64,000 nucleotides of DNA, taken from assembly GCA_903893745.1 (NCBI GenBank), contig CAITNF010000001.1, positions 62,001 to 126,000 of the forward strand, given 5' to 3'. Positions 16,699-38,453 of this stretch are shown here, piece after piece (the first letter of the stretch is position 1; each line of letters starts with the position of its first letter). Under the pieces are notes generated by a model. The model saw nothing but the letters and a program-made list of their open reading frames with translations, did not search any database and was not told the DNA's origin. Position numbers and translations under genes: made by a program. This DNA comes from an uncultured Actinomycetes bacterium (GTDB taxonomy: Bacteria; Actinomycetota; Acidimicrobiia; Acidimicrobiales; RAAP-2).

Positions 16699-16744
16699 CG
16701 GTCGCTCCTCTTATCTTCGAACCACAGACCAAACGTACTCGTGG

Positions 16745-17446
16745 CTAAGCAAGAGTCTGTGGCTGAATGGTTCCGTTGACGAGAGCGCGGGCAGCCCGGC
16801 GCTGCATCAAAGCCCAGGTCTTCTCGAGGTAGTCGGCTTTACCCAGCAGGATCTGAATGTGCTCGAGGATATCGGGCGTCATAACCGGTGCGTCAGTGGG
16901 TGACAAGGTCACGTCTAATTTTGCGACGTAGTCAAACGTCACGTGTCGAGATGCGGCTTCACCCATAGTGGAGCCAACCGTGATTGCGCCATGCCACGGG
17001 ATGACAATGGCGACATCCTCATCACGCAGAGCCGGAGCGATTGATTCGATCTCGTCGTCGGGCGCAATGGCAGTTTTTTCATAAAAGTACGTCGCCAAAT
17101 TGTGGTACACGCGTGGGGGGCGACCAAAGGCTGACTGAGCCGTTACCCAAAATCCGTGAGTGTGGACAATCGCGTTAACGTCCGGACGCAGGTCGTAGAT
17201 ACCGGGGTGGAATCCAATACCCGGGCTGACGTCGCGGCCTTCGCCCACATCCTCACTACCAAAATCGAGCAGAAATATATCGTCAATAGTCATCTCTTCA
17301 AATGCCCGGTCCAGGGCATTGGTCCAGTAACGACGTTCGCCGGGCACGCGAACACTGACGTGGCCACCGATTACTGATCCGAGTCCGTACACCGCCAAGG
17401 CGTGGCAAGCATCGAGAACCTCACGAGCTAATGGGTCACTTTTCAT
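16745..17446 (-). CDS. Class II aldolase/adducin family protein
   Basis: A 233-residue zinc-dependent aldolase-fold protein. Metal ligands are visible in IVHTHGFWV and in PWHGAITVG, and the N-terminal segment GLGSVIGGHVSVRVPG is the usual phosphate/substrate loop in which Asn of the sugar-phosphate aldolases is replaced. Family members are fuculose- or rhamnulose-phosphate aldolases, ribulose-phosphate epimerases and decarboxylases of aromatic acids. Placement between an amidohydrolase gene and a crotonase gene suggests a decarboxylase or aldolase step in a carboxylic-acid pathway rather than sugar use. It starts 48 bases after the amidohydrolase gene. Confidence 0.82.
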   Translation of the reverse strand: MKSDPLAREVLDACHALAVYGLGSVIGGHVSVRVPGERRYWTNALDRAFEEMTIDDIFLLDFGSEDVGEGRDVSPGIGFHPGIYDLRPDVNAIVHTHGFWVTAQSAFGRPPRVYHNLATYFYEKTAIAPDDEIESIAPALRDEDVAIVIPWHGAITVGSTMGEAASRHVTFDYVAKLDVTLSPTDAPVMTPDILEHIQILLGKADYLEKTWALMQRRAARALVNGTIQPQTLA

Positions 17447-17494
17447 GAATTGCTTCCTTTCAGTAGATGGTTAGTGCGATTATCGAACGTGTAA

Positions 17495-18739
17495 CTAGGG
17501 AAGTGGATTCGCGGGGAGTGGATGCCGGAAGAGTTTGGCGGCATTTCCGTAAGTGATTTGACGAATTGTCTCAACGGGTAGCCCCCCCAAGAGGTCAACG
17601 GCCGTATCTTGCACCCGGGGCCACAGCGAGTCTGCATGTGGATAGTCAGTTTCAAAGAGAATGCGATCGGTGCCAATTCGATCGAGAATGGGCATCACTG
17701 ACGGGTCATCGAGCATGCAGAACCAGAAGTTGCGAAGTAACACTTCGGCCGGACTCGGCGCTCCATCGGGCCACGCCGTACTGCGTAGTCCCGAGTGGTC
17801 CGCAATAAAACGAAGTCGGTCAAGCAGCATTGGCACCCAGCCAATCCCGCCTTCCGATAAGACAATCTTCACGTCGGGGAAGCGAACGGGGATGCTTGAC
17901 CACAGCCACTCAGCGCAGGTAACAATCGAAAGTGTTGAGAAAAGTGTGGAAGCGAGCTGCAACTTCGGTGCGTCATCGGCACTGGGCAGAAGTCCAGATG
18001 ATCCGACGTGAAGACAGATCACCGTATCGGTATCCACGCAGGCCTGAATAATTGGGTCCCAGTAACGAGACGATACCGATGGGAGACCAATCCGGTGAGG
18101 CTGCTCGGGCAGTGTCACTGCAGTGAACCCACGTGCCGCGTTACGTCGAATCTCTTTAGCCCCAAGTTCGGGGTCAGTAAGCCACGTAATACCCATGGGG
18201 ATACTTCGATCCGGGTACGGAGCCCACCATTCTTCCGCAAACCAGTCATTCCACGCTCGCGTCACTGCTTGGCCGAGTTCTGGATCACTGCATCGCGAAT
18301 AGACCGAACCACAAAAACCGCTGATCTGTGAAGGGAAGTTCGTCGAGGCGTAAATGCCACCAAGATCCATGTCACGAATTCGCGCGTTGATATCCCAGCA
18401 GCCGGGGCGAATTTCATCGAACGAAGTAGCTTCAAGCGACCAATCTTCTTTTGGTCGGCCAGCCACGGCGTTGAGGCCGACTTGCAGATACGTCTTGTCG
18501 TCAAAGACCCACGCCTCGCTACCATCACCTTGAGGGATCAACTTTGGCGCCAGCTCTTGAAATTTCTTAGGCAGTCGGCCTTCAAACATATGAGGTGGTT
18601 CGACTAGATGATCATCGACAGAAATCACCGTGTACCGGACTTCTTGTTGCTCGGGGTCCGGTAAAAGTCCGTGGGTTTCGTGGCGTTCAGTAGGCACCGC
18701 CAGCAAAGTTCCCCGGTCATCAGTCTGCATCTCAGCCAT
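17495..18739 (-). CDS. Amidohydrolase family protein (ACMSD-like metal-dependent hydrolase/decarboxylase)
   Basis: TIM-barrel protein of 414 residues of the amidohydrolase-2 family. Barrel features are VDDHLVEPPHMF at about residue 40, VICLHVGSSGLLP, LSEGGIGWVPMLLDRL and the C-terminal metal/acid motif ILFETDYPHADSLW. The usual HxH of the first strand is DDH, a variant I associate with the actinobacterial branch of this family. Members hydrolyse C-N bonds or decarboxylate aromatic-type acids such as aminocarboxymuconate semialdehyde. It is the first gene of the operon with the aldolase, crotonase, ligase and FadR-type regulator. The ATG follows a pyrimidine-poor leader with GGGGGG upstream, and a clear promoter precedes it. 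Confidence 0.8.
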   Translation of the reverse strand: MAEMQTDDRGTLLAVPTERHETHGLLPDPEQQEVRYTVISVDDHLVEPPHMFEGRLPKKFQELAPKLIPQGDGSEAWVFDDKTYLQVGLNAVAGRPKEDWSLEATSFDEIRPGCWDINARIRDMDLGGIYASTNFPSQISGFCGSVYSRCSDPELGQAVTRAWNDWFAEEWWAPYPDRSIPMGITWLTDPELGAKEIRRNAARGFTAVTLPEQPHRIGLPSVSSRYWDPIIQACVDTDTVICLHVGSSGLLPSADDAPKLQLASTLFSTLSIVTCAEWLWSSIPVRFPDVKIVLSEGGIGWVPMLLDRLRFIADHSGLRSTAWPDGAPSPAEVLLRNFWFCMLDDPSVMPILDRIGTDRILFETDYPHADSLWPRVQDTAVDLLGGLPVETIRQITYGNAAKLFRHPLPANPLP

Positions 18740-18765
18740 TACTACCCCCCTATTTCCTAGTAATT

Positions 18766-18793
18766 ATTATAATCGTCTTTCTTCTACTCGCAA
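18766..18793 (-). promoter_or_regulatory. Promoter of the amidohydrolase-aldolase-ligase operon
   Basis: TTGCGA (18788 to 18793) and TATAAT (18766 to 18771) are separated by 16 bases on the minus strand and lie about 30 bases before the ATG. The ATTATAAT core is self-complementary and recurs upstream of other catabolic genes here, so it may overlap an operator for the operon's own FadR-type regulator. Confidence 0.6.
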
Positions 18794-18826
18794 TTCACTG
18801 GGGTGGTAGCCCTACTCGTGCACTAC

Positions 18827-19684
18827 TTAACCTCGCGAAGGACGCTCGAACTCAACGAGTAGCCGGGCTGCTTCATCGGCCCGCATGCCAATCGTGACAC
18901 CCGCTTCGAGCGCCCAACGATTACACGCACTGATCACGCCATCTTCGTAGGAGCTTTGGCCACTTCCCATCCGAGCGCCACGAGCGTCAACCGTGGCGCC
19001 GGGGATCCCCATTGGCTCGATGATGGTAAGCCCCACTACGCCCGAGCGGTCCCTCCCCATTGCTCCATCGGAGCAAATGAAACCGTAGGGCTGCGCGGAT
19101 TCCAGATAGGGGACGGCACTACGTCCAGTGTGACCGGCAGTGACGAGCACGTTGTGATGGCGATCCTCGGGGAGGGCGAAGGCGATGGAGTCAGTGCAGA
19201 CCACTTGGCGACCAGTGGACGACTCGAAGACTACGTGTCGATTCGTTACTTGCGAAGCGCTCGAAGCCACGGGATCCGCGTCAAGCATGAGTTGTGCGGC
19301 TTCAATCACTGTCATTCCGGCGAGTACGCCACAGTCAGCGGCAGGCTGGTTGAGTCGACTCACAATTCCATTTCGATAGACATCTTCACCGTTGCCCAAA
19401 AGAACGGTTTCAATGGCGGCGGTCGCTGCGGGAATATTGAGCGCTTCGAGATACCACAGCCCAGCAATTGATGCGCCTTCGGGACCAATGCCACAGTCAA
19501 CGCCGACGACACCACGCGGTTGGTGCTCCCCCATGAACCGGGCTGGCAGGACTCCACAGTATGAGGCCGCGACTACAACATCGCGATTGCGATTGGACTC
19601 ATCGACGTGATAAGCAGAGTCCATCGCCGTAATGCGACCACGAGAGCTAGTGAGGAGCTCAATCTGAGAGATGTCATCCGCCAT
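18827..19684 (-). CDS. Unassigned protein with two tandem copies of one domain (paralogue of 34277-35194)
   Basis: I do not recognise this 285-residue protein. It is built from two homologous halves: residues 35 to about 133 (VVVAASYCG, GVDCGIGPEG, YLEALNIPAA, YRNGIVSRLN, GMTVIEAAQLM) and 177 to about 277 (VLVTAGHTG, ICSDGAMGRD, IEPMGIPGAT, YEDGVISACN, GMRADEAARLL). A linker with VVCTDSIAFALP joins them. It has no signal peptide or membrane segment and so is probably cytosolic. A clear paralogue with the same duplication is encoded about 15 kb away next to DUF35, ligase and oxidase genes. This copy is divergent from an acyl-CoA dehydrogenase gene, with 88 AT-rich bases between. Repeated Gly-rich loops and conserved Asp residues suggest a ligand-binding or enzymatic fold, but no function is claimed. 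Confidence 0.7.
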   Translation of the reverse strand: MADDISQIELLTSSRGRITAMDSAYHVDESNRNRDVVVAASYCGVLPARFMGEHQPRGVVGVDCGIGPEGASIAGLWYLEALNIPAATAAIETVLLGNGEDVYRNGIVSRLNQPAADCGVLAGMTVIEAAQLMLDADPVASSASQVTNRHVVFESSTGRQVVCTDSIAFALPEDRHHNVLVTAGHTGRSAVPYLESAQPYGFICSDGAMGRDRSGVVGLTIIEPMGIPGATVDARGARMGSGQSSYEDGVISACNRWALEAGVTIGMRADEAARLLVEFERPSRG

Positions 19685-19772
19685 GAGTTCTATTCTCTCG
19701 TATTGATTTCATATGTATAGTTATAATAGATTCCCCCAAAATAGTTAATTAGGCAGATTTTCGAGGAGACCG

Positions 19773-20912
19773 ATGAACGTTTTAGCCCGGTTACCCGAGT
19801 CGTACGAGGCGATTCGACTCGAAGCGGAGACTTTTGCCAACAGTCTCGAGGCGATGTCGGTCGAGGCTGACGCGAGCAACGACGTACATCCCGGCGTCCT
19901 TCAGGCGGTTCGCGACAGTGGTCTCATCCGCTATACCGTCCCCGCCGAGTACGGGGGCGCCTTCGAAAAAGTCGACCCCTTCGCGGTGTGTCTCATTCGC
20001 GAAGAACTCATGAAGGTCTGCTCGCACGCCGACTCCCTATTCGCCCTGCAAGGGATTGGGAGTTTCGCAATTTCAGTTGCGGGCTCAAGCGCTATGAAGG
20101 ACGAATGGCTTCCACGAGTCGCTACCGGCGAGGTTTTGGCCGGCCTGGCACTCACTGAACCCGTTGCCGGCTCCGATCTCAAGAGCATTGTCACGACCGC
20201 TCGCCAAGACGGCGACTCCATCGTCATCGACGGGCACAAGTCATTCATTTCTAACGCGGGCGCCGCCGGTTACTACACCGTGCTCGCGAAAGAGGGCGAC
20301 CTGGGCCTCTCGGCATTTTTAGTGCCCGCCGACACTCCCGGACTTTCGACTCGTCCCGCCCCAGAACTTATTGCGCCGCACGTGCTCGGTGACGTGCTGC
20401 TTGATTCGGTCACTATTCCCGCTTCGTCACGAATTGGTGAGCCCGGTAAAGGTCTCGCCCCTGTGCTCGCGACACTGGCGGTCTTTCGAATTTCAGTTGC
20501 GGGCGCTGCGGTTGGCCTCGCCCAACGAGCCCTCGAAGAAGCAACGCGACATGCACGGTCGCGCGAACAGTTCGGGCGCCCCCTCTTGCGTCTCGGTCCA
20601 GTCGCGGGACTACTCGCTGACTCGTGGGCTGACGTTGCGTCGACTCGCCTGCTCACCTACCAAGCAGCCCAACTCGCTCAAGAAGATCCGCAGCGTCACC
20701 TCGAACACTCGTCACTCGCGAAGTTGGCCGCCACGGAGGCGTGCTCTCGGGTAGTAGATCGTTGCGTCCAAGTGATGGGGCGTTGGGGACTTATCCACGA
20801 TTCACGAATTGAGCGCTGCTACCGCCAGGCCCGCGCCATGCGCATCTACGAAGGCGCTTCAGAAGTTCTTCGACTCGGCATCGCCCGCGAACTTGGTAGC
20901 GAGGTCTCCTAG
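19773..20912 (+). CDS. Acyl-CoA dehydrogenase
   Basis: FAD enzyme of 379 residues that introduces an alpha,beta double bond into an acyl-CoA and passes electrons to ETF. The N-terminal helical domain is followed by the flavin/substrate motif LALTEPVAGSDLKSI and the C-terminal four-helix domain with REQFGRPLL. The probable catalytic base is Glu360 in IYEGASEVLR. Start ATG has GGAG four bases upstream. Its stop is followed after one base by the GTG of the SDR gene, and an amidohydrolase gene comes next, making a plus-strand operon of three. TATAAT at 19722 to 19727 is a likely -10 box. Chain length specificity is unknown. Confidence 0.9.
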   Translation: MNVLARLPESYEAIRLEAETFANSLEAMSVEADASNDVHPGVLQAVRDSGLIRYTVPAEYGGAFEKVDPFAVCLIREELMKVCSHADSLFALQGIGSFAISVAGSSAMKDEWLPRVATGEVLAGLALTEPVAGSDLKSIVTTARQDGDSIVIDGHKSFISNAGAAGYYTVLAKEGDLGLSAFLVPADTPGLSTRPAPELIAPHVLGDVLLDSVTIPASSRIGEPGKGLAPVLATLAVFRISVAGAAVGLAQRALEEATRHARSREQFGRPLLRLGPVAGLLADSWADVASTRLLTYQAAQLAQEDPQRHLEHSSLAKLAATEACSRVVDRCVQVMGRWGLIHDSRIERCYRQARAMRIYEGASEVLRLGIARELGSEVS

Positions 20913-20913
20913 C

Positions 20914-21663
20914 GTGGATATGCAGATAAGTGGACGAGTTGCCATCGTCACGGGGGCGAGCAAGGGACTAGGCGAAGCAATCGTGCGCGCCTACGCGCAA
21001 GAGGGAATGAGGGTTGTCGCAGCTGCCCGTAGTGCACAAGCCCTCACCGCTCTCGCCGAAGAGTTCCCCACCTCAGTTGAAGCAGTGGTGTGTGACGTCG
21101 CTGATCCCCAGCAGGTGACCGACCTCGTGGCTCGGGCCCTGTCGAAATTTGGAGCACTCGACGTGATTGTGAATAACGCGGGAATCGCTCCCGCCGGCGC
21201 CTTTATCGACATGCCGGCGTCCACATGGTCTGACGTTTTCGCCGTCAATCTATTCGCTCCAGTAGCCCTCGCCAAGGCTGCGGGACCAATCTTCCTCGAA
21301 CAGCGTCGTGGAAAAGTAATCAACGTTGCCTCAACTTCGGGTCTGCGCGGCAAGCCCGTTCTGGCCGCTTACTCGTCATCCAAAGGCGGACTACTGCGCT
21401 TTACCGAGGCGCTCGCGGGTGAGTGGGCCCAGTTCAACGTGCAGGTCAACGCCATTGCCCCGGGTGCCTTTGCCACCGACGCGCAGCAAGCCGTCCTTGA
21501 AAACCCTGACGTGCTCGCGCGACGCCTTCGAAAAATACCCACTGGACGAATGGGCGACGTCGAAGAGATTGGGGCCCTTGCTTGCTACCTCGCTTCGCCG
21601 CTCTCGGACTTCGTAACCGGCGCCACCTACGTCATCGACGGTGGTGAGTCGGCCAAACTGTAG
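20914..21663 (+). CDS. SDR family oxidoreductase
   Basis: Classical short-chain dehydrogenase of about 249 residues. The cofactor motif is TGASKGLG, the structural motif NNAGIAP, and the active site Ser-Tyr-Lys is seen as VASTSGLRGK then AYSSSKGG. The C-terminal part has the common ending YVIDGGESAKL. Starts at a GTG one base after the acyl-CoA dehydrogenase stop; an ATG two codons later is an alternative. It is probably 3-hydroxyacyl-CoA or alcohol oxidising in the same pathway as its neighbours, but the family is too broad for a firm substrate. Confidence 0.85.
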   Translation: MDMQISGRVAIVTGASKGLGEAIVRAYAQEGMRVVAAARSAQALTALAEEFPTSVEAVVCDVADPQQVTDLVARALSKFGALDVIVNNAGIAPAGAFIDMPASTWSDVFAVNLFAPVALAKAAGPIFLEQRRGKVINVASTSGLRGKPVLAAYSSSKGGLLRFTEALAGEWAQFNVQVNAIAPGAFATDAQQAVLENPDVLARRLRKIPTGRMGDVEEIGALACYLASPLSDFVTGATYVIDGGESAKL

Positions 21664-21673
21664 GCCGGGCATC

Positions 21674-22459
21674 ATGATCATTGACTTCCACAACCATGTT
21701 TGGCCCGACGCAATTGCCCCGCGTGCGCTCGGGGGCAACATCCCTGGCATGGATCTCTTTGGTGATGGCACCGTAGCCGGACTCGCTGCCGCGCAAGACG
21801 AGGCCGGGGTTGACCGTTCGGTCTGTCTTACCGTAGCGAATACACCCGCCCAACTCGCGTCAGCAAACCGTTTTGCGGGGTCGCTCGACCGGTCTCGCTT
21901 CATTCCGTTTGGCACGATTCACCCGTTGGTGTCGCCCGAGGAAAATCTTGCTCACCTTCGCGACAACAATGTTGCGGGCGTCAAGTTACATCCCGTCTTT
22001 CAAGGATTCAGCCTTGACTCCCCGGCATTATTCGATACCCTGGCCGCCCTGGAAGGTGAGTTTTGTGTGATCACCCACGTGGGTGATGGTGGTGGGGGTG
22101 ATGGCACCACGTGCACTCCCCAGATGGTCGCCAAGATTGCCACAACATTTCCACGACTCTCACTCGTGGCCTGTCACTTCGGTGGCTACCACTTCCTCGA
22201 CCAAGCGCATGAAGCGTTGGCGGACATACCAATCATGATTGACACCTCGTGGCCGCCGAGCCTCGCCACGCTCGATCCCGAACTAGTCCGCGCGACAATC
22301 CGACGACACGGTGCCGAACAGGTCTTGTTCGCATCAGATTGGCCCACCGCCAAACCAGCCGCGGAGATTGCGGCAATTCGAAATCTCGGGTTAAACGATG
22401 ATGAGACCACGCTGATTCTCGGAGCCAACGCCCAGCGACTGTTGGGTCTTTCCAACTAG
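21674..22459 (+). CDS. Amidohydrolase family protein
   Basis: A 261-residue metal-dependent hydrolase or decarboxylase of the amidohydrolase-2 family. It begins MIIDFHNHVWPD, where the HxH of the first barrel strand is intact, unlike in the amidohydrolase at 17495 to 18739. Other landmarks are VKLHPVFQGFSLD, ITHVGDGGGGDG, LVACHFGGYHFLD and the metal-binding Asp in LFASDWPTAK. The ATG lies 11 bases after the SDR stop codon; an earlier in-frame start would overlap the SDR and add no family sequence. It is the third gene of an operon with acyl-CoA dehydrogenase and SDR genes. Substrate unknown. Confidence 0.82.
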   Translation: MIIDFHNHVWPDAIAPRALGGNIPGMDLFGDGTVAGLAAAQDEAGVDRSVCLTVANTPAQLASANRFAGSLDRSRFIPFGTIHPLVSPEENLAHLRDNNVAGVKLHPVFQGFSLDSPALFDTLAALEGEFCVITHVGDGGGGDGTTCTPQMVAKIATTFPRLSLVACHFGGYHFLDQAHEALADIPIMIDTSWPPSLATLDPELVRATIRRHGAEQVLFASDWPTAKPAAEIAAIRNLGLNDDETTLILGANAQRLLGLSN

Positions 22460-22476
22460 TCACTGGTGCAGTGACT
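22458..22476. terminator. Short convergent hairpin overlapping a stop codon
   Basis: AGTCACTG and its reverse complement CAGTGACT are separated by GTG. The first two bases belong to the TAG stop of the amidohydrolase gene, and the minus-strand crotonase gene ends four bases further on. No T-run. It repeats the arrangement seen after the DMT transporter gene. Confidence 0.4.
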
Positions 22477-22479
22477 GGG

Positions 22480-23241
22480 CTAATCGTTCGGAGATTGCCG
22501 ATCAGCGAGCAGGGTGAGTAGCACGTCAAGTTCACGCTCAATTCCCGGTGCCTGCGCAACCTCGGCACTCATCCGGAGGAGTTCTTTCGCGTAGATCAGT
22601 GCCCGATGAGGTTGAGCGGCGATCGCGGACGCCAGCTCAGCGGCGGCCGACTGAAGCTCCTCGGGCGCAACGCAGCGGTTGACGACGCCCCACGCCAGCG
22701 CTTCGGGTCCACTCAGACGTAAGCCGAGGTAGAGCATTTCTGCGGCTCGGGCAATACCAATCAGCCGCGGCAGGCGCTGTGTGCCACCACCACCAGGTAC
22801 TAAACCATGCGTCAGCTCAGTGAGTCCCACTTGCGCGTTCTGCGCGATAAGTCGAATATCGCACGCCAACGCCATTTCAAATCCTCCCCCGAGGGCGTAA
22901 CCATTTATCGCCGCCACGGTCGGCTGGGGTAGCGACGCGAGTAGTTCAATGTCGCGACTTGACTTCAAACGGTCACGACGTTCGGCGGGCGACTCGGGCG
23001 CACCCGCTTCTTTTAAATCCATCCCCGCGCAAAAGAAACGATCACCGGCGGCGGTGAGAATGACCGCGCTGACGTCGGCTCGACTGCCAACGTGATCCCA
23101 AATCTGAACGAGTTCTGTGCGCATGGTCTGGTTACGAGCATTTGCCGCATCGGGGCGTTGCAAAGTAACGGTAGCGACCGCGCCCTCAATAGTTAGTGAA
23201 GTCGCCTCTAGGTCACTCACCCAGGTTGGTTCAAGCGCCAT
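22480..23241 (-). CDS. Enoyl-CoA hydratase
   Basis: Crotonase of 253 residues starting MALEPTWVSDLEATS. Both catalytic glutamates expected of a hydratase are present: one in GLTELTHGLVPG and one in ARAAEMLYLG. Oxyanion-hole segments are AGDRFFCAGMDLKE and GYALGGGFEMALACD. It hydrates 2-enoyl-CoA in beta-oxidation. Its start lies 11 bases inside the 3' end of the hydroxyacyl-CoA dehydrogenase gene, so the two are probably translationally coupled. It is the last gene of a five-gene beta-oxidation operon starting at 27882. Confidence 0.9.
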   Translation of the reverse strand: MALEPTWVSDLEATSLTIEGAVATVTLQRPDAANARNQTMRTELVQIWDHVGSRADVSAVILTAAGDRFFCAGMDLKEAGAPESPAERRDRLKSSRDIELLASLPQPTVAAINGYALGGGFEMALACDIRLIAQNAQVGLTELTHGLVPGGGGTQRLPRLIGIARAAEMLYLGLRLSGPEALAWGVVNRCVAPEELQSAAAELASAIAAQPHRALIYAKELLRMSAEVAQAPGIERELDVLLTLLADRQSPND

Positions 23242-24112
23242 GCTCTTCCACCTTCGCTCCGTCGGCACCGTAGCGATAGATTCCCCAACCAGTCTTTCGA
23301 CCCAACCGTCCCGCCGCAACCAAGTTGCGCAGCGTCACGGTCGGTCGGAATCGCTCACCGTGAGCGACTTCGAGCGCCTCGAGGGCGTGAAGGTACGTAT
23401 CAAGCCCATTGAAGTCACCCAGTTCCAACGGACCCATTGGAAAGTTCAACCCGAGGCGCAATGCTTTGTCAATATCGGCGGGCGTGCCCACCCCCTCTTC
23501 AACCATCTTTAAACACTCCAGTCGGACAATGGCTGAGACCCTCGAGGTCATGAAACCAGGGCTGTCTTTTCGACACACCACCGTCTCTTTACCCAAACCC
23601 TGCGCAAAGGCCTCGGCGCGAGTAACGGTCTCCTCAGTGGTTTGGAGTCCAACCACTAGCTCTACCAACCGCATCAGTACTGGGGGATTAAAGAAATGCA
23701 TACCAACGAGGCGGCCACCCTGGTCACCCAGGGCCGACGCAATTCGAGTGATTGACAGCTGTGACGTATTGGTTCCTAGCAACGCACCGCTCGGAGCGGC
23801 GGCAATAACCTCCCGGAATACTTCGTGCTTCACCTCGAGTCGCTCGACCACCGTCTCAATCACCACGTCGGTGCCCTCGCACGCCGCGGTGATTGAGGTG
23901 ACAGTACTCACCCGGCCCAAAACCTGATCGGGTAGTTCGCCTCCGAGTCGGTCCTTCGACGCAAGCTTGGCGAGACTACTTTTCATTGACTCGAGAGCAA
24001 GGTCACCCTTGGTTGGGTCACTGTCGACGACGACGACCACATGGCCCGCCATGGCACACACCTGTGCGATACCCGAACCCATAGTTCCTGCTCCAATTAC
24101 GGCAACCTTCAC
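23231..24112 (-). CDS. 3-hydroxyacyl-CoA dehydrogenase (3-hydroxybutyryl-CoA dehydrogenase type)
   Basis: Oxidises L-3-hydroxyacyl-CoA with NAD. The 293 residues start at GTG (KVAVIGAGTMGSGIAQ, the NAD-binding fingerprint) with AGGAG six bases upstream. The catalytic His is in GMHFFNPPVLMRLVE. The SPGFMTSR segment and the C-terminal dimerisation domain (GLNFPMGPLELGDFNGLD) are complete. It is monofunctional, without a fused hydratase. The gene lies 25 bases downstream of the thiolase gene and overlaps the hydratase gene, which provides the preceding step. Confidence 0.93.
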   Translation of the reverse strand: MKVAVIGAGTMGSGIAQVCAMAGHVVVVVDSDPTKGDLALESMKSSLAKLASKDRLGGELPDQVLGRVSTVTSITAACEGTDVVIETVVERLEVKHEVFREVIAAAPSGALLGTNTSQLSITRIASALGDQGGRLVGMHFFNPPVLMRLVELVVGLQTTEETVTRAEAFAQGLGKETVVCRKDSPGFMTSRVSAIVRLECLKMVEEGVGTPADIDKALRLGLNFPMGPLELGDFNGLDTYLHALEALEVAHGERFRPTVTLRNLVAAGRLGRKTGWGIYRYGADGAKVEEHGA

Positions 24113-30184: not shown

Positions 30185-31009
30185 CTACATCCCCAGCGAC
30201 TGCACGCTGTCACGCCAGGCGAGCACGCCACCGTCAATCAACCAGTTCACACCGTTCACGAACGATGACTGCGAACTTGCCAAGAAGCAGACCAACTCGG
30301 CCACGTCGTCGGGTTCACCGATTCGATGAACGAGGTGGGTATCAATCGGGCTACCACCGCTATCAGTGTCGGCGTCGGCCGGAGCCGCGGCCATCAGTGT
30401 TGCAGTGACATCTTTCACCATGTCAGTGTCTACCGAGGCCGGACAGTAGCAATTCGCTCGAATCCCGAAGGGTGCCAGAGCCACCGCAAGGTTCTTAGTT
30501 AGTAACGCAATTGCGCCCTTACTCGTTCCGTACGCCAGGCCGAATGGATAACCAACCCAGGATGCGGTCGATCCCGCATTAATCACCGATGGGGATTTTT
30601 TACTCTTTTTCAAGTACGGAAGTGCCGCCTTGGTGCACATGAAAACTCCACGTACGTTAACATTCATCACTCGATCAAATGTCTCGACGGACATTGACTC
30701 AAAGGTGAAGTCCTTTGAAATCATGGTCTCATGGATACCAGCATTGTTGTGCAACACGTCGATACCACCAAAGTGCTTTGCAGCGGTCTCCATTAGTGCG
30801 GTGACATCAGATTGTGAGGACACGTCACAGTGGGCGTAAATTGCTCGGCCCCCCGCAGCGATGATCTTTGCGACGGTGGCTTCACCGACCTCATCGATTA
30901 CATCCGAGATGACTACGTTGGCGCCACGTGCTGCGGCCATTGCTGCAGTGGCCGCCCCAATTCCTCGAGCACCTCCGGTAATGACAATCGTTACATCCTT
31001 CAACGACAT
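30185..31009 (-). CDS. SDR family oxidoreductase
   Basis: Short-chain dehydrogenase of 274 residues starting MSLKDVTIVITGG. Cofactor motif TGGARGIG, an Asp at the end of strand 2 (ISDVID) favouring NAD, NNAGIHE, and the active-site Ser, Tyr and Lys in INAGSTASWVG and AYGTSKGA. The end reads VNWLIDGGVLAW. The ATG has GGGGG six bases upstream. An earlier in-frame start would add 12 residues. It follows the thiolase-like gene by 120 bases, with an ATTATAAT element between them, so it may have its own promoter. Probably oxidises a hydroxyl made by the P450 or beta-oxidation, by context only. Confidence 0.87.
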   Translation of the reverse strand: MSLKDVTIVITGGARGIGAATAAMAAARGANVVISDVIDEVGEATVAKIIAAGGRAIYAHCDVSSQSDVTALMETAAKHFGGIDVLHNNAGIHETMISKDFTFESMSVETFDRVMNVNVRGVFMCTKAALPYLKKSKKSPSVINAGSTASWVGYPFGLAYGTSKGAIALLTKNLAVALAPFGIRANCYCPASVDTDMVKDVTATLMAAAPADADTDSGGSPIDTHLVHRIGEPDDVAELVCFLASSQSSFVNGVNWLIDGGVLAWRDSVQSLGM

Positions 31010-31074
31010 ACAGTTCCCCCTTTTCACGACTCGTGAGTTCGTCACTCACGCCACCGTTTTAGTTTATGAATTTG

Positions 31075-31129: not shown

Positions 31130-32296
31130 CTAATCGTCTCGACCGAGCACCAAAACGTTGTGATACTGCGCTCCCGAACCGGCCCCCGTCACCAATGCCG
31201 TGCGAGCCCCGGCCACCTGTCCCGACTTTGCCTCGCCCCTTAGCTGGTGCACCGCTTCAACAATCTTTAAGGTGGGTCCACCCCAGCCAATATGCGCGAA
31301 CGACAAAAGGCCACCATCAGTGTTGATCGGAAGTCGGCCGTCTTCGCTAATTCCCGCTTCAAAAGCGAAGTCGGTACCTTCACCTTCGCCACAAAACCCG
31401 AGTACCTCTAACTGGCGGACTACTTCGAAAATATTAATGTCGTATAACTCGAGCACGTCAACATCGGCGGGTACCATACCGGCCATGGCGAAGGCACGTC
31501 GCCCAGCGTCTTCACCAATTCGTCCGACTTCGTCGTACCTCGGGGGGTCAACATACTGCTGGCGGAACCATTCACACGCCCCACCCAGAAGTTGGACCGG
31601 CGTCTGAGGAAGGTCTCGAGCACGCTCACGTGACGTCAGCACCATGGCGGCGGCACCTTCGGTCGCCAAGCAAACCTCAAGAAGATGGAAAGGACTCGCA
31701 ATCATTGGTGACGCCAGCACGTCAGCCGACGTGTACGGACCTCGGCCACTCATCACTGCTTTGGGATTCTTTGATCCCGAGTTCCGAATCATTGCTGCAA
31801 GGGAGGCGAGCCGTTCACGATCAGGCCCGTATCGATCGAAGTAGACCTGAGCAACCAGTGCAAACTGAGCCTGGGTAATTGATCCCCAGCACGAGAGAAA
31901 CTCGTTGTCGGGTCGAGTGTACGAAGCAACTTTCCCGCCACCCGCAAGGTCGGCCTGACCACCAACGACGAGCACTGTTTCGCACTGTCCTGTGCTGATT
32001 GCCGCCGCCGCCTCGAGCGCGGCCGGTACCCCTTGTGGGTACGTATCACCAATCCAACGTAACGGCACACCGAGCAGCTTGGACCAATCCGATGAACCGG
32101 GTTGAAACACGGTGCCACCTGGTCCGGGCCAGCGAGCAGAAATTCCATCAATATCGTGCACCGTCAGACCAGCATCCGCCAGAGCAGCTAAAGCCGCGTC
32201 TAAACAGGCGCGTAGCGTGCTGGTTTCAAGGTGCCGGGCCATCGCCGTACGTCCGACCCCGACAATCGCGACCTCATGCAGGGGATTCGAACTCAT
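31130..32296 (-). CDS. Thiolase-like protein (lipid-transfer/Ltp2 type) lacking canonical catalytic residues
   Basis: A 388-residue thiolase-fold protein. It begins EVAIVGVGRTAMARHLE and has family segments SPFHLLEVCLATEGAAAMVLTS split around residue 215, ELYDINIFEVVRQLEVLGF and TDGGLLSFAHIGWGGP. Where thiolases carry the nucleophilic Cys this protein reads IGDTYPQGVPAAL, and GHPIGATG is FAHIGWGG, so a standard thiolysis mechanism is unlikely. In Mycobacterium and Rhodococcus Ltp2-type proteins of this kind pair with a DUF35 protein and act as retro-aldolases on steroid side chains. A DUF35 gene lies two genes upstream in the same operon. The ATG overlaps the ligase stop as ATGA. Confidence 0.8.
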   Translation of the reverse strand: MSSNPLHEVAIVGVGRTAMARHLETSTLRACLDAALAALADAGLTVHDIDGISARWPGPGGTVFQPGSSDWSKLLGVPLRWIGDTYPQGVPAALEAAAAISTGQCETVLVVGGQADLAGGGKVASYTRPDNEFLSCWGSITQAQFALVAQVYFDRYGPDRERLASLAAMIRNSGSKNPKAVMSGRGPYTSADVLASPMIASPFHLLEVCLATEGAAAMVLTSRERARDLPQTPVQLLGGACEWFRQQYVDPPRYDEVGRIGEDAGRRAFAMAGMVPADVDVLELYDINIFEVVRQLEVLGFCGEGEGTDFAFEAGISEDGRLPINTDGGLLSFAHIGWGGPTLKIVEAVHQLRGEAKSGQVAGARTALVTGAGSGAQYHNVLVLGRDD

Positions 32297-33840
32297 ACTT
32301 GGCGCTCACCATTCCACAGCGGTCGACGTACGGCCTGTTTATCAATCTTTCCCACGGCATTCTTAGGCAGGGCCTCCATAAAAATCACTTCTTCCGGTCG
32401 AACGAATTTAGGTAGTTCTTGTGCGGCAAACTCCAAGAGCTCCTGCGCCGAAGCCTCATTATTGGGGCGAAGTACGACTACCGCAACAATTCGTTCACCC
32501 CATTCGATGTCCGGAGCGCCCACCACGGCCACTTCGAGTATCGAGGGATGACGGTAAAAGACGTTCTCAATATCAGTGGGGGCGATGTTCTGGCCACCTC
32601 GAATGATGAGGTTCTTCAGCCGATCAACGATGTACACGTAGCCGTGCTCATCGACTTCAGCGATATCGCCCGAGTGCATCCAACCATCAATAACCGATTC
32701 ACCCGTACGTTCCGGGTCGCGATAGTAGCCCTTCATGAGGTGAGGGCCGCGAAAGATAACCTCACCGCGTTCTCGAACTGCCACATCACGTCCTTGATCA
32801 TCAACGACGCGCACGGTAACGGCCAGCGAAGGCTGTCCGGCGGAGCGGAGTAACTCTGGTTGATCACTTAACGCGTGTGCGTGGTCTTGTTTGCGCAACA
32901 GCGTTCCAATCGAAGCAATCTCCGCCATCCCGTACAGCTGGATGAAAATTGATCCAAACCGGTCAACCAAGAGGCGCAAACGGTCAGGAGATATTGGTGA
33001 TGATCCGTAGCCCAATGTCTCGAGTGTGGCCAGTCGCTCTACCAAGCCGGGGCCGCTTTCGAGCACTCTCATCAGTTGGGTAGGTACCAAAAATGAGTGA
33101 GTCACCCGTTCGCCAGCGACAACGTCGGCGAAGCGTTCAGGGTCGAAGCTCCGATTATCGGCGAACCCTAATGCCGCGCCGATAACAAAGCAGGGCATCA
33201 TCGTAATATTGACGCTCGAGTTATGGGGAATTTGGATGAGGTAGCGACTCTCTGGGGATAGTTCATACTCAATGCACGCGACCGTGGCGTGCTGCATCAT
33301 TGCGTCATGGGTAAACAGCACACCCTTAGGCCGCCCCGTTGTTCCCGACGTGTACACAATGCAGGCATCTTCGCTTCCGCGAGCTTCGTACAATGACTTT
33401 GGTGGTTCCACTGACGCCGACGTCAGTAACGCTTCGTAGCCATTGCTGCCGCGGTCGTCAAGATCAAGCCACTGACAATTGTGTCGAGCCGCTAACAGTC
33501 GCCCCTCTTCGGCGAACTCTCCCGCGCCAATGAGCAGACGTGGTTCAGCGTTCTCCAAGGCAGCATCCAGATCATTGTCGCTCATTCGAAAGTTCAAGCC
33601 CACGTACACGCAACCGGACTTATGCGTCGCAGCCAGTACCTCAGCTACCTCGATTCGGTTTGGGCACAACAACGCGATCCGGTCTCCGGTCGTGACCGAG
33701 AAATGTTCCAGCACTACGTTCGCCAGCTGGTTGGTGCGTACGTCGAACTCCGACCATGTGCGGCGACGTTGTTGATCGAAAAGCGCCAGAGCATCAGGTC
33801 GGCGTCGTGCCTGGCGCGCTACCGCGCGTCCGACACTCAC
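32293..33840 (-). CDS. AMP-dependent acyl-CoA synthetase/ligase
   Basis: ANL-family ligase of 515 residues with GTG start. Motifs: YTSGTTGRPKG at about 163 to 173, FIQLYGMAEIASIG, HSGDIAEVDEHGYVYIVDR, RGGQNIAPTDIE, and the catalytic Lys498 in LPKNAVGKIDKQ, fully conserved here. It would activate a fatty or cyclic carboxylic acid as CoA thioester. The GTG overlaps the DUF35 stop as GTGA, and its own stop overlaps the thiolase-like start, so DUF35, ligase and thiolase-like protein are likely made in fixed ratio. It is only distantly similar to the other ligase at 14270. Confidence 0.9.
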   Translation of the reverse strand: MSVGRAVARQARRRPDALALFDQQRRRTWSEFDVRTNQLANVVLEHFSVTTGDRIALLCPNRIEVAEVLAATHKSGCVYVGLNFRMSDNDLDAALENAEPRLLIGAGEFAEEGRLLAARHNCQWLDLDDRGSNGYEALLTSASVEPPKSLYEARGSEDACIVYTSGTTGRPKGVLFTHDAMMQHATVACIEYELSPESRYLIQIPHNSSVNITMMPCFVIGAALGFADNRSFDPERFADVVAGERVTHSFLVPTQLMRVLESGPGLVERLATLETLGYGSSPISPDRLRLLVDRFGSIFIQLYGMAEIASIGTLLRKQDHAHALSDQPELLRSAGQPSLAVTVRVVDDQGRDVAVRERGEVIFRGPHLMKGYYRDPERTGESVIDGWMHSGDIAEVDEHGYVYIVDRLKNLIIRGGQNIAPTDIENVFYRHPSILEVAVVGAPDIEWGERIVAVVVLRPNNEASAQELLEFAAQELPKFVRPEEVIFMEALPKNAVGKIDKQAVRRPLWNGERQV

Positions 33841-34277
33841 GACATCGCCTCTTGTGGTGTGAACATAGGCAGCACGCGGTGTGGCGGTCGATTTTCAGGG
33901 ACGAAAACCACTTTGACGTCAAGCCCAATCACGTCTCGAGGTGAGGCCTCATCAGGTGGGGTAATGACTAGTTGGCTCAACATGGTCCAACCTTCACTCA
34001 TGTCAATGATCGCGAGTACGTACGGGACCTCCCACGTCGAGTCCGGACCCCGATGAACCGTGGTGTAGCTGTACACCCGACCTAGGCCGCTGCTGGGCTG
34101 GTAGGCCCACTCTGTGCTTTGACACGCTGGACAGACCAGTGACGGCGTAAAGAAGTTGGTGCCACAGGCATCACAGACTGGTCGAACCAAGATTCCGCGC
34201 GCGCACGCCTCCCAAAAAGGAGTTGTCAGTTCATTATCATTCTCGTTCGCAAGGTCACCGTTATTCACAAACCCCAT
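33837..34277 (-). CDS. DUF35 OB-fold/zinc-ribbon protein
   Basis: A 146-residue acyl-CoA-binding accessory protein. The N-terminal helix (NELTTPFWEACARG) is followed by a C4 zinc ribbon with Cys35, Cys38, Cys49 and Cys52 (CDAC, CPAC) and an OB-fold (GLGRVYSYTTVHRGPD). DUF35 proteins bind thiolase-fold partners, for example ChsH2 with Ltp2 in steroid breakdown and the archaeal thiolase/HMG-CoA synthase complex. The partner is probably the thiolase-like protein encoded two genes downstream. The ATG shares one base with the TAA of the upstream unassigned gene. Confidence 0.87.
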   Translation of the reverse strand: MGFVNNGDLANENDNELTTPFWEACARGILVRPVCDACGTNFFTPSLVCPACQSTEWAYQPSSGLGRVYSYTTVHRGPDSTWEVPYVLAIIDMSEGWTMLSQLVITPPDEASPRDVIGLDVKVVFVPENRPPHRVLPMFTPQEAMS

Positions 34278-35194
34278 TAGACCAAACCGGTCAAGAGGTG
34301 TCGCGCGGCTTCTCGCACCGTCTGCCCGACGGCGACCCCACGCTGTTTCGCCAATTCATTCACCCTTGAAATAATGCCCCTGTCCCACGCGTCGTAGGCG
34401 TCACCCATCGCCGCGGTCATCACGTCATAGCAAGCCCCGGCTAATCCAGCGGCGTCGAGTACTGGTAGTCCGGCGTAGCCCGAACCATTTTTTGCGCTGC
34501 CCCCATCGGCGCAAATAAAACCCCAGGGGGAGACCTCTTCGATGAATTTGGCTCCAGTACTTCCGGTGTGTCCGGCCGTCACCAAAACGTTGGCCGAGTC
34601 CTCAGCGCGAGCGAAGACAATTGAATCGGTGACCACAATGCGGTGCCCGTCGATCATCTCGCCCACAACTTTTCGACGAACTTTGGTGCCGGCCGTAATA
34701 TCACCGGGTTCGTTTATTGCCAATGCCTTTGCGGCCTCAATAACCGACATACCCGGTTCGACACCGCAACGTTCGGCGAGTACGTTGACCCTCGAAATTC
34801 TGCCATGGTCATACATATCTTGTGCGTTACCCAATTCACCAGTGGCACCGTCAACGGCAGCTGCGGGGATCCCTAACGCCTCTAAATACGCCAACCCCAT
34901 AATGCCCGAGCCGTCGGCAGCGATACCAACGTCGTGGAACATTGCCCCACGCGGGGAGTATGGTGCCACGAGGCGAGCGGGCAAAGTACCCCCATACGAA
35001 GCGGCGATAACGACTTCACCACGATTTCGCTCGTCACAATAACGAGCCGAATCAATCAACATCACGCGGACGTTATCGTGTCGGGCGGCCTCTACCTGAG
35101 GGCGGTCTTGCTCACTTTCGGCGTCGAGCATCGGCGCGTGGTCTTGGGGCCCTGATGAAGTCAACCTCGTATTCCTTTCGTCGTTACGACTCAC
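34277..35194 (-). CDS. Unassigned protein with two tandem copies of one domain (paralogue of 18827-19684)
   Basis: I do not recognise this protein (up to 305 residues). After a variable hydrophilic N-terminus it shows two homologous halves: about 58 to 156 (VVIAASYGGTLPARLV, MFHDVGIAADGSG, YLEALGIPAA, YDHGRISRVN, GMSVIEAAKAL) and 201 to 299 (NVLVTAGHTGSTG, ICADGGSAKNGSG, LDAAGLAGA, WDRGIISRVN, GQTVREAARHL). The linker contains HRIVVTDSIVFARAE, which matches the paralogue. The GTG start is seven bases after the FMN oxidase stop; a TTG ten codons later has AAAGGA eight bases upstream and may be the true start. Its stop shares one base with the DUF35 start, so it belongs to the oxidase-DUF35-ligase-thiolase operon. 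No export signal. Function unknown. Confidence 0.7.
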   Translation of the reverse strand: MSRNDERNTRLTSSGPQDHAPMLDAESEQDRPQVEAARHDNVRVMLIDSARYCDERNRGEVVIAASYGGTLPARLVAPYSPRGAMFHDVGIAADGSGIMGLAYLEALGIPAAAVDGATGELGNAQDMYDHGRISRVNVLAERCGVEPGMSVIEAAKALAINEPGDITAGTKVRRKVVGEMIDGHRIVVTDSIVFARAEDSANVLVTAGHTGSTGAKFIEEVSPWGFICADGGSAKNGSGYAGLPVLDAAGLAGACYDVMTAAMGDAYDAWDRGIISRVNELAKQRGVAVGQTVREAARHLLTGLV

Positions 35195-35201
35195 CCTTGG
35201 A

Positions 35202-36374
35202 CTACAAAGTCCGGCGGCCCGAATTCATTAACAATCGATCTGCCTGACCGTAGATCTCCGCCATCGTTGGTGTCCCCAACAATGCCAGATCTCGATCAAT
35301 CTCCGTCTGCAGTATCTCAATCACGCGCGAAACACCTTCTTCACCCGCCACCGCGAGTCCCCAAAGGTACGGTCGACCAAAGAGGCAGGCCGATGCCCCG
35401 AGGGCCACCGCTTTCAACACGTCCGAACCGCGTCTGACCCCACCATCCATCAGCACCGGAATCCGTCCGCCCACTGCGTTAACCACGTGAGGCAGTGCTG
35501 CAATTGCCGGAATTGCTCCGTCGAGTTGGCGTCCGCCGTGATTCGAGACGATCACCGCATCAACCCCTTCATCAGCAAGTCGTTTGGCCGCAATAGGGTC
35601 GAGGACACCTTTCACGATGAGGGTACCCGACCACTTTTCACGTAACCATCGAAGATCATCCCAACTAGCTGAAGGATTCAGTTGGCTGTTAACGTACGCA
35701 CCCAGCGCCAACGTTCTGCCACGGTGGCCATCACTGACGTTGGCAAACGTGACGGGTGCGCCGGCCATCTTTATCATCCAACCCGGGTGACGTAAGACTC
35801 CAAGCGAATTCTTTGTACGAATCTTGGGAGGAATTGTCATACCGTTGCGCAAGTCTCGTTCACGCGAACCAGAAAGTGGCACGTCCACGGTGAGACAGAT
35901 GGCGTCGTAGCCGGCGTTGTGTGCCCGATCAACCAAACTCCCCGTTACCTCACGGTCTCGCCACAGATAGAGCTGCAGCCACAGGAGCCCTTTGGCTGCA
36001 GCACGGACCTCTTCGATTGAGCAACTAGAGGCCGTGGAAACGGCAAAAGGAATCCCGGCCTTTGAAGCGGCAGCGGCCGCCGCAACTTCGCCACGGGGCC
36101 AGACCAAACCTGCGAGACCCGCCGGTGCAAGCAGCAAGGGGGTTGGCATAGTTTGACCGAACAACTTCACCGACTGATCTCTAAGCGAGACATCATTTAG
36201 TACTTGGGGGCGTAGCCACCAGTCATCAAAACTGGTTATATTCTCTCGGACCGTCGACTCATCTTGCGCACCACCATCAACGAAGTCGAAGATCATGGGT
36301 GGAAGTTTCCGTCGAGCTCGTCGGCGGAACTCCTCCACGGAAAATAGTCCGTCGAGCCGACGGGACGTGGTCAT
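35202..36374 (-). CDS. FMN-dependent alpha-hydroxy-acid oxidase/dehydrogenase
   Basis: TIM-barrel flavoenzyme of 390 residues of the lactate/glycolate/mandelate oxidase family. The substrate-oxidising His and Arg are in VSNHGGRQLDG, FMN phosphate binding in LMDGGVRRGSDVLKAVALGA, and the N-terminal signature LPPMIFDFVDGGAQDEST is intact. It oxidises an L-2-hydroxy acid to the 2-keto acid. ATG is preferred because it gives MTTSRRLDGLFSVEEF at the normal family start; a longer frame exists upstream. The start lies 17 bases after the SnoaL-like gene. Next to acyl-CoA genes it may remove 2-hydroxy acids that block beta-oxidation, an inference. Confidence 0.9.
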   Translation of the reverse strand: MTTSRRLDGLFSVEEFRRRARRKLPPMIFDFVDGGAQDESTVRENITSFDDWWLRPQVLNDVSLRDQSVKLFGQTMPTPLLLAPAGLAGLVWPRGEVAAAAAASKAGIPFAVSTASSCSIEEVRAAAKGLLWLQLYLWRDREVTGSLVDRAHNAGYDAICLTVDVPLSGSRERDLRNGMTIPPKIRTKNSLGVLRHPGWMIKMAGAPVTFANVSDGHRGRTLALGAYVNSQLNPSASWDDLRWLREKWSGTLIVKGVLDPIAAKRLADEGVDAVIVSNHGGRQLDGAIPAIAALPHVVNAVGGRIPVLMDGGVRRGSDVLKAVALGASACLFGRPYLWGLAVAGEEGVSRVIEILQTEIDRDLALLGTPTMAEIYGQADRLLMNSGRRTL

Positions 36375-36391
36375 TGCGAAGTAGCCCGTAT

Positions 36392-36799
36392 TTAGTAGTG
36401 GACGTCGAGATCGAGATGGCGTCGGCGAATCTTCCAACTACCTCCATCAACCACAAATTGATCACGATAGACACCGGTGGCCTGCAGACGCGTACTCCCC
36501 TCATCGGTCACCAGCAGCGAGAGATACGACGTGACCGTCGCCGATGTTGCGGTGGCGTCATCAATCACCACGTTGGTCGTCACGTGACGACGCTGGTCCG
36601 TTTGAATCGCGTGGTGATCGGTGAAGTGCTTCATCACCTCGGCGTGGCCTTCGTAGGGACCCATCTGCTCACTGCCCCCAATATCCATCGTCATCACCGC
36701 ATCAGCAGTAAAACAATTCGCCATGCGCGGTACATCTCGTTCGTCATATCCCAACGCCCAAGAAGCTAGAACATTTTCAATAGCATTTCGGTCAGTCAT
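36392..36799 (-). CDS. SnoaL-like (NTF2-fold) protein
   Basis: Small 135-residue NTF2-fold protein: N-terminal helices (AIENVLASWALGYDERD), CFTADAVMTMDI, EGHAEVMKHFTDHHA, RRHVTTNVVIDD and a final GSWKIRRRHLDLDVH. It aligns along its length with the SnoaL-like protein at 27975 (helix, FTDDAV/FTADAV, RRH at the end), so they are distant paralogues. Family activities include isomerisation, cyclisation and dehydration of steroid-like or aromatic rings; many members are of unknown function. It appears to be the first gene of the operon running to the thiolase-like gene, although no clear promoter is seen in the 63 bases upstream and a transcript from the ABC importer cannot be ruled out. Confidence 0.7.
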   Translation of the reverse strand: MTDRNAIENVLASWALGYDERDVPRMANCFTADAVMTMDIGGSEQMGPYEGHAEVMKHFTDHHAIQTDQRRHVTTNVVIDDATATSATVTSYLSLLVTDEGSTRLQATGVYRDQFVVDGGSWKIRRRHLDLDVHY

Positions 36800-38452: not shown

Positions 38453-38453
38453 A

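Follow-up and report, generated by a model that had tools for sequence, protein, structure and literature searches.

A fused pair of DUF1805-like domains in catabolic gene clusters: a tentative case for an enzyme of carboxylic-acid breakdown

What is the role of an unassigned two-domain protein whose gene runs directly into that of a DUF35 protein in an acyl-CoA operon, and to which family does it belong? The gene, here called D1805x2_A, lies in a stretch of 64,000 nucleotides (the window) from an uncultured actinobacterium, and an earlier note on this DNA had described its product as two tandem copies of a domain of about 100 residues for which no family could be named. The coordinates of the gene, its neighbours and the window's other gene of this family, D1805x2_B, are collected in Table 1.

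Table 1. Features of the two D1805x2 loci in the window
Feature	Position	Strand	Remarks
D1805x2_A, gene of the finding	34277..35194	-	Uninterrupted reading frame; 305 aa with GTG as start codon, 295 aa with TTG at 35164
D1805x2_A N-terminal domain copy, residues 41-160	34715..35074	-	Halves align; AlphaFold2 domain model pLDDT 91.3
D1805x2_A C-terminal domain copy, residues 182-302	34289..34651	-	Halves align; 1qw2 match of the full model falls here (Z 8.3, 93 residues)
DUF35 protein (zinc ribbon and OB fold, as in ChsH2)	33837..34277	-	PF01796 54.8 bits, PF12172 32.5 bits, both over cut-off
Acyl-CoA ligase (AMP-binding)	32293..33840	-	Best NCBIfam model PRK06187, 417.7 bits, below cut-off 476
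Thiolase-like protein without nucleophilic Cys, YD motif as in Ltp2/Sal aldolases	31130..32296	-	
SDR oxidoreductase, after the thiolase-like gene	30185..31045	-	
FMN 2-hydroxyacid dehydrogenase/oxidase	35202..36437	-	NCBIfam PRK11197 E 2.1e-109, below its cut-off
SnoaL-like protein	36392-36799	-	
ABC ATPase	36863-38491	-	Sequence reading
Sugar-type ABC permease	38454-39515	-	
TPP enzyme, acetolactate-synthase group	39792-41441	-	
Solute-binding protein	41638-42717	-	Sequence reading; no NCBIfam match at 1e-10
D1805x2_B, second two-domain gene, same family	18827..19684	-	285 aa, 44% identical to A
D1805x2_B domain copies	19280-19642 and 18851-19216	-	
B-type surroundings	14270..24112	.	AMP ligase, BadI-like crotonase, class II aldolase, two amidohydrolases, acyl-CoA dehydrogenase, SDR (assigned through its similarity to another SDR), second crotonase, 3-hydroxyacyl-CoA dehydrogenase

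The tandem duplication is borne out. The two halves of D1805x2_A align without gaps (residues 40-160 against 182-303) with a score of 195, where 2000 shuffles gave 60 at most, and profiles of the two halves of the family align with a probability of 99.9% (E 4.4e-37, 37% identity over 120 columns). D1805x2_A is two tandem copies of one domain, with a likeness far above chance. All of the motifs listed in the earlier note (VxxAxxxG, DxGxxxxG, GIPAA-like, GxISRVN and a helix with EAA) are present in both halves, but the repeat unit is about 120 rather than 100 residues long, the first strand and a conserved Asp-Ser (residues 48-49 and 190-191) having been omitted. The one-base overlap with the DUF35 gene is found as described, at position 34277, whereas the spacing of seven bases from the FMN gene hinges on the start codon: it holds for the GTG at 35194 and becomes 37 bases for the TTG at 35164. 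Reading of the sequence suggests that the TTG fits better, as it lies eight bases after AAAGGA and matches the ATG start of a homologue on a MAG contig (L004, 74% identical) better than the GTG does.

A remote family can be named for this protein, namely DUF1805, itself listed as uncharacterised in the literature searched. The DUF1805 profile (PF08827) matches 17 of 20 full-length members at E values up to 0.1, the best being 1.8e-7, while the gathering cut-off of 29.5 bits is missed by both window proteins (A 25.8 bits, B 18.7 bits); among seven relatives scanned singly, only the Aminobacter protein L023 lies above it, at 31.7 bits. At a threshold of E 0.001, PF08827 matched 0/149 actinobacterial genomes, the window's own among them. 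The alignment spans almost the entire profile, and so more than the motif discussed below, in window A (positions 9-62), L022 (9-61), L021 (7-62) and L024 (9-64), and starts late in L011 (position 36), L023 (25) and window B (36, covering 36-63 only). Among single domain copies PF08827 matches 15/35, and the unrelated IMS profile 19/35. Because IMS matches so many copies, and because window B matches DUF1805 only at this short stretch, part of the DUF1805 signal is one shared motif; as the same strand-helix motif also lies inside the DUF1805 profile, we do not trust the profile matches alone.

The case for DUF1805 likeness is carried by the structure match. An AlphaFold2 model of the first domain, built from six rows (the copies of both window genes and of L004), reached a pLDDT of 91.3, and a model of the full protein from three rows 75.5, its four other models scoring 51.8 or less. 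The earlier note had proposed a structural search with such a model, and here the two tools diverged. In VIA-align, 1qw2 (TA1206) headed the list for the domain model, with Z 7.7 and rmsd 3.3 over 81 residues against 5.9 for the next row, and again for the full model, where the match fell on the second copy with Z 8.3 over 93 of 102 residues against 5.4, leads of 1.8 and 2.9 in a tool that itself describes best Z values of 7-8 as common without a clear match. In Foldseek, 1QW2 was not within the first 50 rows for either model. Nor was its chain among the PDB sequence matches of the family profiles A1 and A4 (E up to 10) or of single sequences. Structure rows for LarE/LarB, SteA, Rossmann dehydrogenases and PRPP synthetase were judged to reflect a common alpha/beta arrangement.

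1QW2, a structure released in 2004, is tabulated as DUF1805/COG3377 (PMC9425974), and YunC of bacilli appears as COG3377 and as an uncharacterised DUF1805 protein (PMC10050317, PMC11417686). With 1QW2 as the best structural match for both copies and the profile matches set beside it, we consider the D1805x2 protein very probably DUF1805-like. It would be a remote relative, and we do not file it as a DUF1805 member because the window protein scores below the family cut-off; it also differs in having two tandem copies with a linker and in its setting in catabolic operons. In this reading the protein is a fused pair of DUF1805-like alpha/beta domains and probably a pseudo-dimer. The name brings no activity with it: the papers found list DUF1805 only as uncharacterised (PMC9425974, PMC10050317, PMC11417686), and literature on DUF1805, Ta1353, YunC/COG3377, Rhodococcus WAY2, RLP/sugar kinase/apionate and apiose, PMC7276702 included, yielded no function for the D1805x2 protein.

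The last motif of each copy, GxISxxNxxAxxxGVxxGM (34751-34804 and 34325-34378), also occurs in Y-family DNA polymerases, and in Foldseek rows 27 residues fit within 0.3-0.6 A. The IMS profile of these polymerases (PF00817) matched 13/20 members, with a best E value of 1.7e-10, and DNA polymerase rows also appear in PDB and NCBIfam searches with the family profiles or sequences. Window B even exceeds the IMS cut-off, with 26.6 against 23.2 bits, but the best-matching part spans positions 31-71 of the 148, and window A scores 22.3 over positions 30-57; in the proteins scanned only 26-41 of the 148 positions are covered. We reject kinship with the polymerases, as the likeness is one short strand-helix motif and the whole palm/finger domain is absent. 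The motif may reflect convergence or an old shared fragment.

Conservation was counted over 35 domain copies. N97, A100, G104 and G108 are invariant, and D8 is kept in 34, D48 in 33 (Asn in the other two), S94 in 32 and S9 in 31. Position 83 is Asp in 21 and Asn in 13, position 26 Ser in 24 and Gly in 10, and position 27 His in 23 and Tyr in 11. In the AlphaFold2 secondary structure, D8-S9, positions 26-27, D48, G82-83 and S94/N97 each fall after or at the end of a predicted strand. Both copies would keep one and the same site, with Asp-Ser behind the first strand, Ser/Gly-His/Tyr behind the second, Asp behind the third, Gly-Asp/Asn behind the fourth and Ser...Asn at the fifth. In D1805x2_A a conserved Asp falls at residues 88 and 230 and a conserved Asn at 137 and 279. 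These residues may meet in one pocket, and the site may bind a small acid rich in oxygen or the corresponding cyclic ester. No catalytic triad was recognisable among them, and the set would also suit binding without catalysis.

At 1e-5, D1805x2 matches 7/396 actinobacterial genomes, a count that takes in the genome of the window; one actinobacterial genus has four genomes with two copies each, and single-domain relatives occur in 3/39 genomes of another actinobacterial family. No convincing copy was found among 36 genus-mates of the window genome, where the only two matches were judged chance and no genome had more than two. By tblastn the window protein matches 13 plasmid records (three of Rhodococcus, five of haloarchaea and five of alphaproteobacteria, rhizobia being among the organisms), of which 12 call the product 'hypothetical protein' and the remaining one carries no annotation. 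WP_159928433.1 of Rhodococcus sp. WAY2 and the haloarchaeal WP_339106093.1 are examples of the family. One additional record, a haloarchaeal gene remnant, was matched with a haloarchaeal query. On the Halomarina plasmid NZ_CP119993.1 (L060), two equal-scoring remnants lie near both record ends (18963-19085 and 1141854-1141976), perhaps an assembly overlap or a duplicated stretch. Both Aminobacter copies open with what reads like a Tat signal, a stretch running from MNRRIFLGSS to ALAQA; the Tat-type N-terminus of one of them (L023:9860-10810) has no counterpart in the other rows of alignment A1.

Profile A1 was built from 20 full-length members, excluding the near-copies L029 and L031, the G451 genes (L044, L045) and the G418 gene (L037/L055). 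Profile A4 was built from 33 of the 39 listed halves and two single-domain proteins, excluding both halves of the near-copies L028, L030 and L032; the short C-half of L025 had been omitted from the list of 39. Weak matches to CoA-transferase subunits (L003, E 0.03; L005, E 2.4e-4; L006, E 6.9e-4), whose translations were read, were judged to be chance and removed from the family, as was a match in G254 (E 6.8e-4).

In a tree of the domain copies, those from the N-terminal halves of the actinobacterial A and B genes form one group (86/92) and those from the C-terminal halves another (97/98), which suggests a duplication older than the split between A and B. The deepest branch is weak (58/69), and the haloarchaeal/alphaproteobacterial pair may stem from this duplication or from a second one. 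A foreign origin or misbinning of the window is unsupported, since its GC content (0.55-0.57, against 0.51-0.61) and its tetranucleotides (correlations 0.80-0.94) resemble those of ten other stretches of the same genome. The catabolic region, with its native-looking base composition, sits in a genome of 1.66 Mb that is 96.4% complete, although its 36 genus-mates yielded no convincing copy of the gene.

To which chemistry does the genomic context point? Outside the window, relatives in haloarchaea and in another actinobacterial family stand in clusters that suggest sugar-acid breakdown. The gene lies directly before that of a RuBisCO-like protein (RLP) in 6/6 haloarchaeal records with a match (L022, L026, L027, L028, L032 and the L060 remnant), and a single-domain gene takes the same place in all three matching genomes (L053, L054, L059) of the 39 in their actinobacterial family. 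The RLP is followed by a DUF1537-type kinase in 8/9 of these stretches (L028 by annotation; L054 ends at the contig with the RLP only), and a PGDH_C protein is found in 6/9. Two of the clusters (L053:4907-10914 and L059:3886-9902) comprise a Zn-dehydrogenase, the single-domain D1805 protein, RLP, kinase, PGDH_C protein and BKACE; the RLP frame of L053 is broken, and the kinase match of L059 is split over two overlapping frames. For two RLPs the best NCBIfam model is OiaX (515.6 and 550.5 bits) and for two kinases OiaK (438.3 and 441.4 bits), in each case below the equivalog cut-off of 700. In these partners and in PGDH_C the clusters resemble the D-apionate module (ApnL, ApnO, OiaK, OiaX), from which they differ in their sub-cut-off scores and in lacking ApnL. 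No RLP was found in the 64-kb window, and of 339 plasmid records with an RLP-family match (1e-30) at most 14 hold a D1805 domain.

The distribution of ApnL was followed by protein searches of whole records or genomes, as the NCBIfam model for ApnL matched 0/4 genomes but no control either. In Shinella, the neighbours of the same RLP-kinase pair are a Gfo/Idh dehydrogenase and a protein resembling ApnL (312.8 bits against a cut-off of 750). No ApnL match was found in the six haloarchaeal records and three genomes with a D1805 domain (0/9), whereas two of the three searched RLP records without the domain have an ApnL-like lactonase, namely Shinella (the query's own record) and Labrenzia; the third, from Halalkalicoccus, has neither and carries a GntP permease in its cluster. 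The comparison covers these 12 cases; L072 and L076, RLP records that likewise lack the domain, lie outside it. This complementary pattern suggests a lactonase, with the qualification that it follows taxonomy (archaea and actinobacteria against alphaproteobacteria) and draws on plasmid records without their host chromosomes. ApnL is not among the four NCBIfam models matched by any of the 20 D1805x2 members (E 0.1).

The gene next to the Ponticoccus copy, on the opposite strand, encodes a glucose/sorbosone dehydrogenase, a family that can form lactones. Presuming that the clusters follow the logic of the D-apionate route, in which we take ApnL to perform the lactone step in Shinella, the D1805 protein would hydrolyse the lactone made by the cluster's sugar dehydrogenase, the step of the ApnL-like protein there. 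As the Aminobacter copy starts like a Tat signal, an enzyme acting on free acids or lactones would suit better than one acting on CoA esters. By elimination, lactone hydrolysis is the leading single candidate for D1805x2, albeit a weak one that taken by itself we hold to be doubtful.

The second gene of the window, D1805x2_B, lies in a different acyl-CoA cluster from D1805x2_A. Five B-type loci were mapped (the window, L046, L048, L050 and L052): all five have a crotonase related to the window's BadI-like one in the same cluster, in four a ligase of the second kind present in the window lies no more than a few kb away, and four (not L050) have an acyl-CoA dehydrogenase and an SDR. There are hints that the B cluster may work on alicyclic acids, since its dehydrogenase is closest to the model for cyclohexane-1-carbonyl-CoA dehydrogenase and its crotonase to that for BadI, both below the equivalog cut-offs. 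The neighbours seen across the family, RLP, BKACE, BadI-like crotonase and HpcH aldolase, belong to families of which many do beta-keto- or beta-hydroxy-acid chemistry. They would also fit another isomerase, an epimerase, a tautomerase or a decarboxylase acting on a hydroxy or oxo acid, a reading about as doubtful as the lactonase; neither sequence nor any convincing fold match links the protein to such an enzyme of known mechanism.

The A-type operon offers a more specific alternative. Its order, D1805x2 - DUF35 - AMP ligase - thiolase-like, is kept in 8/8 loci mapped (the window, L004, L046, L047, L049, L051, L020 and L030), which agrees with the view of the earlier note that the protein is a working part of the pathway and with the co-occurrence with DUF35 and thiolase-like genes that it had thought worth checking. 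L031 (USK10, with 1 kb flanks) was not counted, and no other reference gene was matched on the 4.8 kb contig L055. The FMN 2-hydroxyacid dehydrogenase gene stands just before D1805x2_A in the window and in L004. Near it in the window lies the TPP enzyme, a pairing that would presumably suit a 2-hydroxyacid such as mandelate.

In all eight thiolase-like proteins DTYPQG occupies the site at which two comparison thiolases, the window's other one and one more from Rhodococcus, carry the nucleophilic Cys; HDCF, found in the former, is replaced by YD(I/V)(N/T). Ltp2 and Sal, two steroid aldolases, rely on the Tyr of a YDHF/YDCY motif, and at the Cys position Sal carries Gly (PMC12329534); the hydratase partner of such aldolases carries a MaoC domain (PMC11321319), and DUF35 ties the partner enzymes together (PMC12329534, PMC11321319). 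By these motifs the thiolase-like protein of the window looks like a retro-aldolase of the Ltp2/Sal type. A search with the PF01575 model of MaoC gave no match up to 30 kb from the A gene in any of five genomes (one of them, G317, limited to a 22.7 kb contig). As the thiolase-like and DUF35 proteins resemble those of the Ltp2/Sal systems and no PF01575 match lies near in the five genomes, the A-type operon probably ends in retro-aldol cleavage, with D1805x2 where a hydratase would be expected. It shares with the Shy-Sal and ChsH1-ChsH2-Ltp2 complexes a DUF35 and a cysteine-less YD-motif thiolase-like protein in one operon, and differs from them in that DUF35 stands alone, PF01575 is absent nearby and an unrelated two-domain protein stands in front.

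D1805x2 might accordingly be imagined as a hydratase or isomerase that docks on DUF35 and makes the beta-hydroxyacyl-CoA for the DUF35/thiolase-like retro-aldolase, in place of the MaoC hydratase of those complexes. The position directly before a stand-alone DUF35 gene and the Tyr kept in the YD motif, each in 8/8 loci, together with the lack of a nearby PF01575 match in the five genomes and the known tying role of DUF35, speak for this. Crotonase-type hydratases, however, lie elsewhere in the A-type clusters and could do the hydration step, the top structural matches of D1805x2 are neither MaoC nor crotonase, and Rhodococcus DMU1 has the thiolase-like (46.8% identical), DUF35 and ligase genes without a D1805x2 gene. 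Moreover, no DUF35 was matched in the mapped stretches around the B-type genes of L048, L050 and L052 or around L021, L023 and L024, and none is annotated beside the haloarchaeal genes examined. We therefore regard this role as unlikely, somewhat more so than either of the preceding two. The acyl-CoA operon in which the earlier note had placed the gene thus stands for the A-type loci, but it is only one context of the family; as haloarchaeal and other actinobacterial relatives sit with RLP and sugar-acid kinase, acyl-CoAs may not be the substrate of D1805x2.

A non-catalytic binding, chaperone or regulatory subunit would agree with the variation of positions 26 and 27 between domain copies and with the literature searched, in which no activity was found for DUF1805, but is improbable given the strand-end polar residues kept in both copies from bacteria to archaea, the varied partners, which make a fixed scaffold unlikely, and the apparent Tat export predicted from the sequence of one member.

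We thus return to the fused DUF1805-like pair as a catabolic enzyme, which we consider likely. The best single explanation, which we put forward tentatively and at a little under even chances, is an enzyme of carboxylic-acid breakdown whose reaction, by elimination, would most likely be lactone hydrolysis. The two genes of the window may have been recruited to ring-opening or related steps of CoA-linked pathways, one of which would end in a DUF35/thiolase-type retro-aldolase. In its widest and most speculative form, which we consider unlikely, this proposal would make the DUF1805-like domain a new catalytic unit: the single form and the fused pseudo-dimer would hydrolyse lactones in OiaX/OiaK-like pathways without ApnL, and the fused A and B forms would have been recruited to CoA-linked pathways, the A form alongside a cysteine-less DUF35/thiolase retro-aldolase.

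Through the D1805x2 branch a DUF1805-like domain is linked with catabolic clusters of organisms in culture (Rhodococcus, haloarchaea and rhizobia), so its function is directly testable. The family would give a name to a protein now annotated as 'hypothetical protein' and, if the proposed function is true, it would provide the first biochemical role for a domain of the DUF1805 kind and an unrelated replacement for ApnL.
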